From the NCBI GenBank assembly GCA_015490455.1, contig WFXU01000020.1, forward strand, positions 1 to 45,815: 45,815 bases of DNA. The letters are read 5' to 3'. Below the pieces are notes generated by a model, which saw nothing but the letters and a program-made list of their open reading frames with translations, was not told the DNA's origin and did not search any database. Below, piece after piece: positions 5,029 through 7,962 of the stretch. Position numbers and translations under genes: made by a program. Source of the stretch: Hyphomicrobiales bacterium (GTDB lineage Bacteria; Pseudomonadota; Alphaproteobacteria; Rhizobiales; Devosiaceae). The stretch's first letter is position 1. Each line of letters begins with the position of its first letter.

Positions 5029-5358
5029 ATGGAAATGTTAATATCTTTGATTGTACAAATTATTGGCGGAGGCGCTGGGGGCGGCATAGTTGGTAAGCTG
5101 GTAAAAAGCGTCAATATGGGCGGAAGCACTAATATGATTGCCGGCGCACTGGGCGGACTTGGTGGAACGGCAATTTCGGGTATGATACCCGGTCTTGACA
5201 GTCTGATTGGCAAAGGTGCCTCTATGGCCGGCGATGCAACCAGTGCTGTTAGCGGCATTGATATTGGTGCTCTTGCCGGACAGGGCGTAACCGGACTAGT
5301 TGGCGGTGGTTTATTAACCCTGATTGCTGGTTTTGTTAAGAATAAATTTATGGGATAA
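5029..5358 (+). CDS. Glycine-rich small membrane-type protein, unknown function
   Basis: A 109-residue protein rich in Gly, Ala and Ile. Its N-terminus (IVQIIGGGAGGGIVGKLVKS) has a glycine-zipper pattern, and a second hydrophobic glycine-rich segment near the C-terminus (GVTGLVGGGLLTLIAGF) ends in a basic tail. This suggests membrane insertion or self-assembly rather than an enzyme. There is no classical cleavable signal peptide. A GAGGGG ribosome binding site lies 9-14 bases before the ATG, supporting translation. It stands alone and is followed at once by an intrinsic terminator. I know of similar uncharacterised glycine-rich proteins in alphaproteobacteria but assign no function. Confidence 0.7.
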   Translation: MEMLISLIVQIIGGGAGGGIVGKLVKSVNMGGSTNMIAGALGGLGGTAISGMIPGLDSLIGKGASMAGDATSAVSGIDIGALAGQGVTGLVGGGLLTLIAGFVKNKFMG

Positions 5359-5367
5359 TGAACCTAC

Positions 5368-5395
5368 TCCTCCAACCTGTTGGAGGAATATTTTG
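5368..5395 (+). terminator. Intrinsic terminator after the glycine-zipper gene
   Basis: Perfect 8-bp stem TCCTCCAA (5368-5375) / TTGGAGGA (5380-5387) with a CCTG tetraloop, followed by a T-rich stretch. It starts 10 bases after the stop codon. Confidence 0.8.
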
Positions 5396-5500
5396 GTTTT
5401 TCTTTGTGACTAAATTTGCTTAGGGCATTTGGCGCTGGGTTTATTGGTCAAACATTTCTTATCATTTGACAAAATCGCATGAAATTACGTTTTTCTATTT

Positions 5501-5528
5501 CCGACTTCTGACTTCCAGCTTCCGATTT
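5501..5528 (-). repeat. Heptamer repeat array A (consensus AARTCRG on the minus strand)
   Basis: Four abutting 7-base units on the plus strand: CCGACTT, CTGACTT, CCAGCTT, CCGATTT. Read on the minus strand they match AARTCRG with one or two variants. The same heptamer occurs in arrays at 32161-32195 and 45523-45557, always in non-coding DNA. Confidence 0.7.
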
Positions 5529-5560
5529 TCGCAAATATTAATATGTTAAAAATTCTTCAC

Positions 5561-5738
5561 GGAGGGCTAGATACTAAACACCCTCCAAAGTCATCAACTC
5601 AGTTGCGCCCCACGAGCCGCAATCCAATAAACTCAGCTCATGATAGGCGATTGATTTGGAGCAAAAGAGTCCCACGCCCGCTAGTGGACGGGCTATATAT
5701 TTGCTGCTCTTGCCGGAAAAATTACTTATAATGCGCAT
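5561..5738. other. GC-richer structured patch of unknown nature (non-coding RNA, remnant or tiny gene)
   Basis: This part of the 5359-5936 gene gap looks unlike its AT-rich surroundings. Inverted repeats are nested: GGAGGG (5561-5566) with CCCTCC (5581-5586), the competing CTCCAAA (5583-5589) with TTTGGAG (5655-5661), and GCCCG (5676-5680) with CGGGC (5689-5693). The last is followed by TATATATTT, as at an RNA 3' end. The heptamer AACTCAG occurs twice (5597-5603, 5630-5636). Both strands are open: a plus-strand frame at 5543-5731 and a 54-codon minus-strand frame at 5574-5738 with AAGGA beside its ATG. Neither product is recognisable. A small RNA is my first guess, a decayed mobile element the second. 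Confidence 0.3.
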
Positions 5739-5861
5739 ATCCTTCATCTGATTATAAAATTAAATCGGAAAATAGGACATATTCTAACTTATTTCATCAA
5801 ACCTATGTTGGTAGGTAGGCTTAAATTTTGTAATTTTGGTATAAATAAATATTTATGAAGT

Positions 5862-5875
5862 TTGATCCGCATCAA
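5862..5875 (+). promoter_or_regulatory. FNR/FixK-type box upstream of the cytochrome genes
   Basis: TTGATCCGCATCAA is a perfect TTGAT-N4-ATCAA palindrome, the binding site of FNR/FnrL/FixK regulators. Its centre lies about 68 bases before the diheme cytochrome ATG. A TATTAC at 5902-5907 would serve as -10 and place the box near -45, close to the class II activator position. I infer induction under low oxygen. Confidence 0.8.
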
Positions 5876-5936
5876 TGACAAAGTGCAAAATTTAGTCGCA
5901 CTATTACTCGTGGGCAAAAGTAATGGGAGAATAAAC

Positions 5937-6659
5937 ATGCAGAATATATTGCGAAGAGTTTTCTCTAGTATTTTATTGATTACATTTGCGCTGGTGGGTT
6001 TTTCTTTGCCTGCGCTTAGTGCAAATGAAGGTGATATTGTCAGAGGCGCTCAGCTTTATGATAAATGGTTTGCGGTTATTAAAGCAGACAAACCTGATGT
6101 AACTCACCCTAGCTGGCCAGCCAGCAACACCAAGAAGAAAGGTGATGTAACTTGGCGGTGTAAATCCTGTCATGGTTGGGATTATAAAGGGGTTGATGGC
6201 GCCTATGGCTCTGGTTCATATCTAACGGGTATTAAGGGAATTGATGGCATGGTCGGAGCCGATTTAGATGCAATTATTGCTATCTTAAAAGATGATACTC
6301 ACCAATTTGCAGATAGAATGGATGATGCTGATTTTAATGATTTGGCTTTGTTTGTTTCCAAAGGTCAGGTTGATATGTCTCAATATATTGACCTAAAGAC
6401 TAAGGCGCTAAAATCAGGTGATGCAACAAGAGGTCAGCAATATTTTGATACTCTTTGCGCTCAATGTCATGCCCGTGATGGCACTTTACCAAAAGATATG
6501 GATAAATCACTAGGTAAACAAATGGGCAATCCATGGGAAGTAATGCACAAAATCTTAAATGGGCAGCCAGCTGAGCAAATGCCAGCTTTAAGAGCTTTAG
6601 ATTATCAAATTACCCTTGATTTGATGGCACATTTATTGACCTTACCAACTGAGAAATAA
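5937..6659 (+). CDS. Periplasmic diheme c-type cytochrome
   Basis: An electron carrier of 240 residues. Residues 1-29 form a Sec signal peptide (basic start, hydrophobic core, cleavage after ALSA). Two CxxCH haem sites are present, CKSCH at 75-79 and CAQCH at 174-178, so there are two cytochrome c domains. The frame extends upstream to 5862, but that region is promoter DNA containing the FNR box. The ATG at 5937 follows GGGAGA and begins the signal peptide. The next gene, 70 bases on, encodes a membrane tetraheme NapC/NirT cytochrome, so electrons may pass quinol to NapC-type protein to this diheme carrier and on to an unseen reductase. The exact partner is unknown. Confidence 0.9.
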   Translation: MQNILRRVFSSILLITFALVGFSLPALSANEGDIVRGAQLYDKWFAVIKADKPDVTHPSWPASNTKKKGDVTWRCKSCHGWDYKGVDGAYGSGSYLTGIKGIDGMVGADLDAIIAILKDDTHQFADRMDDADFNDLALFVSKGQVDMSQYIDLKTKALKSGDATRGQQYFDTLCAQCHARDGTLPKDMDKSLGKQMGNPWEVMHKILNGQPAEQMPALRALDYQITLDLMAHLLTLPTEK

Positions 6660-6674
6660 TTTCCCTCCTCTAAA

Positions 6675-6703
6675 AGTTGCGCCGATAATATTTTGGCGCA
6701 ACT
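6675..6703 (+). other. Hairpin between the two cytochrome genes
   Basis: AGTTGCGCC (6675-6683) pairs perfectly with GGCGCAACT (6695-6703) across an 11-base loop. No T run follows, so it is more likely an mRNA stability or processing element that sets the ratio of the two cytochromes than a full terminator. Confidence 0.5.
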
Positions 6704-6729
6704 ATCATATTTAACCTTAAGAGGGCATT

Positions 6730-7311
6730 ATGATTAAAAAAATCTGGAATTGGTTTTGGCAACCCTCAAAAAAATTTACATGGGGCGCTATTTTTATCAT
6801 TGGGGGGATTGCTGGGATAATTTTTTTGGGTAGTTTCAATAGTTATGTGGAATATACAAATAGCGAAGAATTTTGTATTTCTTGCCATGAAATGAGAGAT
6901 ACAGTTTATGAAGAATATAAAAAAAGCTCCCATTATAAGAATGCTTCAGGTGTGCGTGCCATTTGTTCAGATTGTCATGTGCCAAAAAAGTGGACGGCAA
7001 AATTAATCAGAAAAGTTCAAGCAACTAGTGAGCTTTATCATAAATTAGTCGGCACTATTGATACGCTAGAAAAATTTGAAGCTAAGAGGCTTGAACTGGC
7101 AAGGCGTGTGTGGGAATCAATGAAAAATAGCGATTCGCAAGAGTGCAGAAACTGCCATTCTGAAGAGGCTATGGATTTTACCAAGCAAGGCAGGCGAGCA
7201 TCTAAAAAAATGCAAGAAGCATTTGAGGTGGGTGAAAAAACCTGCATTGAATGTCATCAAGGTGTTGCACATAAATTACCAGTTGATCCAAATGCAGATG
7301 ATGAAGATTAG
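6730..7311 (+). CDS. NapC/NirT-family tetraheme cytochrome c, membrane-anchored
   Basis: A quinol dehydrogenase that passes electrons from the quinol pool to periplasmic reductases. The 193-residue protein has an N-terminal anchor (about residues 17-35, GAIFIIGGIAGIIFLGSF) and four CxxCH haem sites: CISCH 49-53, CSDCH 79-83, CRNCH 139-143 and CIECH 172-176. Length and haem spacing suit NapC/NirT/NrfH proteins. A GAGGG precedes the ATG. No nitrate, nitrite, TMAO or DMSO reductase gene is adjacent, so the terminal acceptor cannot be named; hence no gene symbol. It is followed by an intrinsic terminator and is presumably under the same FNR-box promoter as the diheme gene. Confidence 0.92.
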   Translation: MIKKIWNWFWQPSKKFTWGAIFIIGGIAGIIFLGSFNSYVEYTNSEEFCISCHEMRDTVYEEYKKSSHYKNASGVRAICSDCHVPKKWTAKLIRKVQATSELYHKLVGTIDTLEKFEAKRLELARRVWESMKNSDSQECRNCHSEEAMDFTKQGRRASKKMQEAFEVGEKTCIECHQGVAHKLPVDPNADDED

Positions 7312-7385
7312 CCAAATAATTATGTCATTAATTTATTGCGGATAAATTAGGTTCTGAATCCAAAACATCAATGCGAACGACAGTA

Positions 7386-7411
7386 AAGGGCAGCGATTTA
7401 TAGCTGCCCTT
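7386..7411. terminator. Bidirectional terminator between the cytochrome and DUF2853 genes
   Basis: AAGGGCAGC (7386-7394) pairs with GCTGCCCTT (7403-7411) over an 8-base loop. AT-rich tracts on both sides suit termination of the rightward tetraheme gene and the leftward DUF2853 gene. Confidence 0.75.
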
Positions 7412-7430
7412 AAAGTTATAATTTATAAAA

Positions 7431-7754
7431 TTATGCTAATTTTGATAAAGTGCCAGTCTTTTCAGCTAATAAATAATAAAAAGTCACACGGCTCTTTTGC
7501 CGATCTTCTTTCATAGTTTCACAAACTGATTGCACACCAGCTGCGGCATCATCTTCTGAAAGACCAAGTTTTTTGGCAGCAAAGCCAGAACGAATGCGCT
7601 CTAATTCAGAATCATCTGAACAAGAAACCAAAGAAGCATCGCGGCTTTGCAGGGCTATGCCCAAATAAGAGACGATTTTTTTAACTACATTTTCATCGGC
7701 GTCCGGCGCATATTTTCTAACATCGTCCATATATTTAAGATATTTATCACTCAT
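7431..7754 (-). CDS. DUF2853 family protein
   Basis: A soluble 107-residue helical protein that I recognise as DUF2853 from its start (SDKYLKYMDDVRKYAPDADE), the LGIALQSRDASLVSCSD segment and the C-terminal SRVTFYYLLAEKTGTLSKL. The family is small, conserved and has no firm function. A GGGGAAA ribosome binding site lies just before the ATG. The gene is monocistronic: a terminator is downstream, and about 200 bases without recognisable features lie upstream (7755-7962) before the next leftward gene. Confidence 0.85.
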   Translation of the reverse strand: MSDKYLKYMDDVRKYAPDADENVVKKIVSYLGIALQSRDASLVSCSDDSELERIRSGFAAKKLGLSEDDAAAGVQSVCETMKEDRQKSRVTFYYLLAEKTGTLSKLA

Positions 7755-7962
7755 AATATTTCCCCAACAATTTTACTGTAATTTTTACTATAATTGCTCG
7801 CAATTTTGACAGGCAAGACGTTTAACTTATAACAGTATTTTTTCTTTTTTCAAATTAACATGTGTAAAGCTTAAATATTCCGATTATAGATAACAATGTA
7901 TGGCATAAAATCTGATATTTATATATGCGAAATTAAATGGAAATATGTTTAGCAATAATCCG

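Follow-up and report, generated by a model that had tools for sequence, protein, structure and literature searches.

A freestanding, FNR-boxed pair of diheme and NapC/NirT-type cytochrome genes as a probable quinol-to-periplasm feed with clients encoded elsewhere

Introduction

NapC-type quinol dehydrogenases are expected to hand their electrons to a periplasmic reductase, but where do these electrons go when a NapC/NirT-type gene is accompanied only by a gene for a soluble cytochrome? This question is raised by a two-gene locus in the window, namely the whole stretch of 45,815 nucleotides analysed here, which belongs to a Hyphomicrobiales genome of 2,015,493 bases (81 contigs, 98% complete). 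A preliminary description had noticed a perfect FNR site before a secreted diheme cytochrome c gene and a NapC/NirT-type gene, with no terminal reductase beside them. Both observations hold, the second for the families searched on the contig of the pair (molybdopterin enzymes, haem-copper oxidases, CCP/MauG proteins and NosZ); all matches of the genome to these families lie on other contigs. The reading favoured here is that the pair probably constitutes a freestanding, FNR-switched feed from quinol to the periplasm at low oxygen, with clients encoded elsewhere, the likeliest being the putative iodate reductase IdrAB and/or the nitrous oxide reductase NosZ. In the first case, the pair would offer concrete gene candidates for the electron route to iodate reductase; in the second, it would be a further route by which electrons reach an enzyme that removes a greenhouse gas. 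With either client, it would be a reusable module for electron transfer, whose two proteins family models label no further than ‘cytochrome c’ and ‘NapC/NirT’.

The two cytochromes

The longest reading frame of the diheme gene, as called mechanically, opens at a TTG within the FNR box (5862). However, the ATG at 5937, which stands behind GGGAGAATAAAC (GGGAGA), is the likelier start and was chosen by reading the sequence, so that the gene spans 5937..6659 on the + strand and encodes 240 amino acids. The protein begins with a Sec-type signal, recognized by eye, and carries the haem motifs CKSCH and CAQCH at residues 75–79 and 174–178. In the alignment used for structure prediction, which comprises 38 sequences (the window protein, its paralogue and proteins from 36 of the 80 loci described below), His122 and Met215 are invariant (38/38). 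Since both residues are invariant, haem 1 is probably bis-His, with His122 as second ligand, and haem 2 probably His/Met, with Met215 as the methionine ligand. In profile searches, the protein exceeds the cut-off solely for general cytochrome c profiles, and PF09459 (EB_dh) gave no match at E values of 1 or below. The model predicted from the 38 sequences has a mean pLDDT of 93. Compared by sequence with solved structures, the top match is CcoP (E 9e-4); compared by fold, good alignments were obtained for single solved cytochrome c domains only, matches to the two-domain fold (QcrC of actinobacterial supercomplexes, TsdA) being weak (best E 9e-4, TM 0.28). A plasmid search for relatives gave no match at 1e-8. 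The genome also encodes a paralogue, 46% identical over residues 34–239 (L099:6901–7704, contig C38), which stands alone, without NapC and without an FNR box (best 7/10).

The second gene (6730..7311, + strand) encodes a NapC/NirT-family tetraheme quinol dehydrogenase of 193 amino acids, with a score of 243.3 bits against PF03264 (cut-off 24.1), four CxxCH motifs at residues 49, 79, 139 and 172, and an N-terminal membrane anchor seen by eye. It remains below the cut-offs of the more specific NCBIfam models (270.7 versus 310.6 for TIGR02161, 251.7 versus 349 for NapC, and likewise for TorC), and no second NapC-family protein is found in the genome. In a phylogenetic tree, the NapC proteins of 29 pairs form one group (support 96/83) relative to a comparison set of one TorC and eight plasmid NapC-type sequences, of which six derive from annotated nap operons. 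The annotated plasmid NapC-type matches sit in nap or tor operons; two matches, as well as a plasmid IdrA record, come without annotation. Distances among the diheme proteins correlate with those among their NapC partners (r 0.66, reached by 0/2000 permutations), a correlation to which shared ancestry also contributes.

An intercistronic hairpin under probable selection

The inverted repeat noted between the two genes in the preliminary description lies at 6675..6703 on the + strand and can form a hairpin of 11 pairs with a loop of 7. Folding of the 28 stretches between diheme gene and napC that measure 45 bases or more was compared with that of 53 other same-strand gaps from the same loci, these control gaps lying between called reading frames of which some are possibly spurious. 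The pair stretches beat their shuffles with a median z of –2.8 (n = 28) versus –0.7 for the controls, of which 9/53 had z below –2, and thus fold better (p 2e-7). Covariation was assessed on eight of the 28 stretches, chosen for near-equal length: 97.7% of the cells pair and two-sided changes occur at 9 of the 11 stem pairs, compared with 28–53% of cells and 0–3 two-sided pairs in slid controls. Four of five covariation measures were reached by none of 500 shuffles; 38 shuffles reached the fifth (further pair types). These data support selection on the hairpin. In some relatives (L011, L014) the stem is followed by a run rich in T, and 5 T are found in 10 bases in the window; an Rfam search of 5300–7900 gave no match at E values up to 1. 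The hairpin could be a weak terminator or an mRNA stabilizer; it may set the ratio of the two proteins, as suggested earlier, and would probably leave the soluble carrier more abundant than the membrane-bound NapC-type protein.

The FNR box and the regulatory setting

The FNR box TTGATCCGCATCAA (5862..5875, no strand assigned) is a perfect palindromic consensus, the sole perfect FNR match in the window, and its centre lies 68.5 bases 5′ of the ATG at 5937. A possible –10 element, CACTAT (5899..5904, + strand), proposed by sequence reading only, would place the box near –42; a sigma-70 promoter scan listed no promoter at the box or at CACTAT. Perfect FNR sites number 13 in the 2.0-Mb genome versus 2 for the reversed pattern. 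Among the 34 closest diheme loci, an upstream FNR-like box of at least 9/10 is found in 16 and is perfect in 7. Single-base shuffles give such a box by chance in 1.4% of cases, that is in about 0.5 of 34 loci; two of the 16 boxes (L014, L025) are over 200 bases away from the start and may be due to chance. The genome further encodes a regulator with CRP/FNR domains, nearest to FnrL (220.7 bits, under the cut-off of 300), with a Cys-rich N terminus by eye. The control by an FNR-type regulator that had been proposed from the box is strengthened by these findings, and the box at the putative promoter, its conservation in relatives and the presence of a candidate regulator together point to an FNR-controlled operon.

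In the present genome, boxes of 10/10 precede the diheme gene and moaA, in the latter case about 220 bases 5′ of the called start, moaA belonging to a molybdenum cofactor (Moco) operon that faces the idr cluster described below. Boxes of 9/10 precede ccoN and the FnrL-like gene itself, while nosR has an 8/10 box 64 bases upstream and idrP1 a weak one (8/10, about 300 bases upstream). A gene for a hybrid histidine kinase (PAS, HisKA, HATPase and receiver domains) precedes idrP1 in the same orientation, which is why idr may answer to a signal of its own within a low-oxygen state set by FNR.

Reductases and oxidases encoded on other contigs

A search of the genome for periplasmic reductases lacking a NapC partner, suggested in the preliminary description, yielded IdrABP1P2 and NosZ; NirS was sought as well, and only weak propeller matches to PF02239 (best 27.5 bits) were obtained in the genome, none being a cd1 nitrite reductase. 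Three molybdopterin enzymes are encoded. One is NuoG (726 bits, cut-off 470), another is an FDH/NasC-like protein under all cut-offs shown and with no visible export signal, and the third is an AioA/IdrA-like protein of 896 residues on contig C76; neither napA nor torA is among them. The gene order around the third is idrP1-idrP2-idrB-idrA. Its large and small subunits pass the arsenite-oxidase-type cut-offs (TIGR02693, 405 bits versus 359; TIGR02694, 121.5 versus 95.65), the small subunit (Rieske IdrB) has by eye a twin-arginine start, and IdrP1 and IdrP2 are di-haem MauG-like proteins that pass the PF03150 cut-off and miss the NCBIfam cut-offs. As passages of PMC8692401 state that idrA neighbourhoods contain idrP1 and idrP2 and aioA neighbourhoods do not, the C76 cluster is taken to be a putative iodate reductase cluster, idrABP1P2. 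In the short stretches examined around AioA-like loci, an IdrP match was found in 0/8. The facing Moco operon encodes MoaA (324 bits, cut-off 284) and MoaC/MoaB (329, cut-off 285), its further genes being below cut-offs. Within the 40 kb of C76 that were read, CxxCH occurs in no called reading frame except IdrP1 and IdrP2, and the genome holds no other CCP_MauG protein. Downstream of idrA lies a gene for a HEAT-repeat protein of about 760 residues (L097:11452–13752, C76); the protein family is present in 25 of 32 idr stretches, and the passages of the idr literature consulted here contain no mention of it.

The NosZ of this genome is of TAT type (1122 bits, cut-off 625) and is accompanied by NosR-like and NosD genes. 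CcoN (775 bits), encoded beside the FnrL-like gene, is the one haem-copper oxidase over cut-off, with neither a second one nor NorB above it. Contigs C48 (L228) and C70 (L225) carry NosZ and the cbb3 oxidase, and the genome has no cd1 protein. By its gene content in the families searched (NosZ, cd1 proteins and haem-copper oxidases with NorB), the organism is possibly an N2O reducer and not a full denitrifier. The expectation that the electron acceptor of the pair is encoded elsewhere is in line with the location of IdrABP1P2 and NosZ on other contigs.

The pair in relatives and the settings of the diheme family

A scan of genome contigs with the diheme protein gave 80 loci, the top 34 of which (L011–L044), mostly labelled Proteobacteria, form the closest set used above. 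Adjacency of NapC was counted with tblastn because longest-frame calling misses genes, for example the NapC of L013, L023, L030, L032 and L036, and the idrA of L106. On this count, a search for the same pair elsewhere, also proposed earlier, was productive: NapC lies within 400 bases 3′ of the diheme gene in 27 of the 34 closest loci. Of the complete set of 80 loci, 28 have NapC beside the diheme gene, 15 a Qrc-like complex (Mo/Fe-S/NrfD) and 37 neither. In the order sample described below, NapC adjoins all 10 diheme orthologues. The Qrc-like setting (L050, L053, L054, L056–L058, L060–L062, L064, L071–L073, L075 and L080) concerns mostly four-haem tandems of diheme relatives, in Chloroflexi and a few other metagenome-assembled genomes (MAGs). 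On this distribution, the diheme family is read as a soluble carrier beside a quinone module.

Two further observations concern individual loci. In L037 and L251, the diheme and NapC genes are joined in one row by a gene for a four-haem tandem of this diheme domain, as a longer version of the module. In L043, a neighbour of 598 residues with one haem motif was considered as a possible NirS and was rejected, its best matches being diguanylate cyclases.

Co-occurrence with IdrA and NosZ

Co-occurrence was determined in a sample of 397 genomes of the order. A diheme orthologue (at least 340 bits, next score 203) is present in 10 of them, IdrA in 26 (all at 765 bits or more, the best genome left out reaching 319) and NosZ in 93. 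All p values given here ignore phylogeny. The diheme protein is associated with IdrA (6/10 versus 20/387, p 8e-6) and with NosZ (9/10 versus 84/387, p 1e-5), but these associations are confounded, IdrA itself being associated with NosZ (19/26 versus 74/371, p 4e-8). Stratification leaves both clients in play: among NosZ-positive genomes the pair still tracks IdrA (5/9 versus 14/84, p 0.016), among IdrA-negative genomes it tracks NosZ (4/4 versus 70/367, p 0.0015), and among IdrA-positive genomes no NosZ effect is seen (5/6 versus 14/20, p 0.47). The diheme orthologue is missing from 20 of the 26 IdrA genomes and from 84 of the 93 NosZ genomes. The six genomes with both diheme protein and IdrA are spread over five families of the order; among the 21 sampled genomes of its own family, only the present one has the diheme protein or IdrA. 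One of the 26 IdrA genomes (G075) is doubtful, with 47% identity and no idrP1/P2 seen in 17 kb; as it does not have the pair, the IdrA association would be no weaker without it.

Of the 28 pair genomes reached via the loci, counted regardless of their completeness, 14 contain IdrA, 19 NosZ and 16 cd1-type matches, and 3 have none of these. This set overlaps with the order sample by at least six genomes (identical 300-base cores), so that the two are not independent. IdrA occurs in 0 of nine diheme genomes without NapC; the NosZ search covered the 28 pair genomes, the present genome and the order sample. Pair and idr also co-occur in MAGs labelled Gammaproteobacteria (G012, G022, G023), and two genomes (G009, G012) have the pair and IdrA with no NosZ match. 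No genome has pair and idr in one examined stretch; in G012 they share a contig at a distance of about 250 kb. In G397, a putative ABC permease of the nos genes, a NosL-domain gene and NosZ lie about 4, 5 and 14 kb from the pair on the same contig, and the pair was never seen as near to idr. Judged by these genomes, the pair belongs to low-oxygen respirers and follows no single reductase, which lends no support to the earlier premise that a NapC-type protein normally serves one neighbouring reductase. In 8 of 32 idr stretches (L176, L177, L181, L183, L184, L185, L189 and L198), CydA-like proteins and membrane-anchored or EB_dh-type cytochromes c flank idr; they are possible dedicated partners of Idr and, in those genomes, rivals of the pair.

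Direction of electron flow and candidate clients

The proposed mechanism is that an FNR-type regulator would turn the pair on at low oxygen, that the NapC-type protein would oxidize quinol and pass electrons to the soluble diheme cytochrome, and that the latter would deliver them to periplasmic reductases encoded on other contigs. IdrAB with its di-haem partners IdrP1/P2 is tentatively ranked as the likeliest client and NosZ, with somewhat less confidence, as the next; both are possibly served. The nos genes about 4 kb from the pair in G397 lowered our estimate for Idr a little and raised that for NosZ. The most specific form of this reading, which we hold as a conjecture, is that the pair provides certain marine Proteobacteria with a hitherto unrecognized quinol dehydrogenase and electron carrier for iodate respiration, with FNR activating both the pair and the idr-facing Moco operon and a NapC-type route replacing bc1. 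That the pair and this operon each have a perfect FNR box upstream counts in its favour; the weak idrP1 box and the other cytochrome clusters beside idr in several relatives count against it. Should the pair instead feed mainly NosZ, electrons would pass from quinol to N2O bypassing bc1, and the link to iodate would reflect a shared low-oxygen lifestyle. This view is on balance unlikely, yet several findings speak for it, namely the presence of NosZ in nearly all pair genomes of the order and in most of those reached via the loci, the NosZ effect among IdrA-negative genomes, the gene neighbourhood in G397 and the box before nosR. It accounts poorly for the many NosZ genomes without a diheme orthologue, for the IdrA effect within NosZ-positive genomes, for the lack of a NosZ effect within IdrA-positive ones, and for G009 and G012.

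Two other explanations have a much lower probability. The pair could feed the cbb3 oxidase, or bypass bc1 towards it, at very low oxygen, as the 9/10 boxes before ccoN and the adjoining FnrL-like gene, and the status of CcoN as the single haem-copper oxidase over cut-off, might suggest. However, haem-copper oxidases occur in 37 of the 38 genomes searched, and such near-universal enzymes explain neither the rarity of the pair (10/397) nor its tracking of anaerobic reductases, which makes this explanation improbable. Still less probable is a reversed flow, in which the diheme cytochrome would be reduced by an external or periplasmic donor and would pass electrons through the NapC-type protein to quinone. 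Quinone-side roles in both directions have reportedly been discussed for the NapC/NirT family (PMC9600427, PMC6295460), and for the Qrc-like neighbours in Chloroflexi the best-scoring model is a menaquinone reductase, below the Qrc cut-offs; but no porin–cytochrome genes were noticed beside the pair, and the FNR box and the co-occurrence with acceptor reductases are more in keeping with an export of electrons.

Comparison with known systems

For iodate respiration, passages of PMC8692401 describe idr clusters without a quinone oxidoreductase, a non-dedicated one being inferred there and bc1 drawn in the scheme. The idrABP1P2 cluster is present here as P1-P2-B-A and is a proposed client, not the pair itself, so that the pair becomes a candidate for the missing quinol dehydrogenase. 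In Pseudomonas sp. SCT, genes for a c-type cytochrome and for the molybdenum cofactor lie near idr, according to passages of PMC10149662; a literature search, mainly of open-access papers, found none that links idrABP1P2 to a NapC-type protein.

The NapC of nap operons and TorC belong to the same NapC/NirT family as the NapC of the pair; however, the present genome has neither napA nor torA, and the pair NapC proteins group apart from the plasmid NapC-type and TorC sequences. Parallels are also found among tetraheme–diheme pairs. NirT and NirB of Stutzerimonas, a tetraheme NapC/NirT protein and a diheme cytochrome encoded together directly downstream of nirS (passages of PMC13086519), show the same gene pairing, the diheme cytochromes being likened by description and not by sequence, but they stand beside nirS, whereas the present genome has no NirS. 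In Azospira suillum PS, PcrQ-PcrO and NapC-NapO are interchangeable for perchlorate and nitrate and thus represent a shared feed, as reported in passages of PMC5845722, which again speaks against tying a NapC-type protein to one neighbouring reductase. These pairs likewise combine a tetraheme NapC/NirT protein with a soluble diheme cytochrome. That paper relates PcrO and NapO by homology to the gamma subunit of ethylbenzene dehydrogenase, a statement from which an EB_dh domain is deduced, and the diheme protein here differs in having no PF09459 match; moreover, PcrQ-PcrO and NapC-NapO sit in pcr or nap loci, whereas the pair here stands alone under its FNR box. Service to several reductases would be compatible with the co-occurrence of the pair with several. 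From its gene content and conservation, the pair is considered real, conserved and FNR-boxed, and of an already known kind in joining a tetraheme to a diheme cytochrome; it would work like PcrQ-PcrO and NapC-NapO or like NirT-NirB, with a diheme cytochrome of another family.
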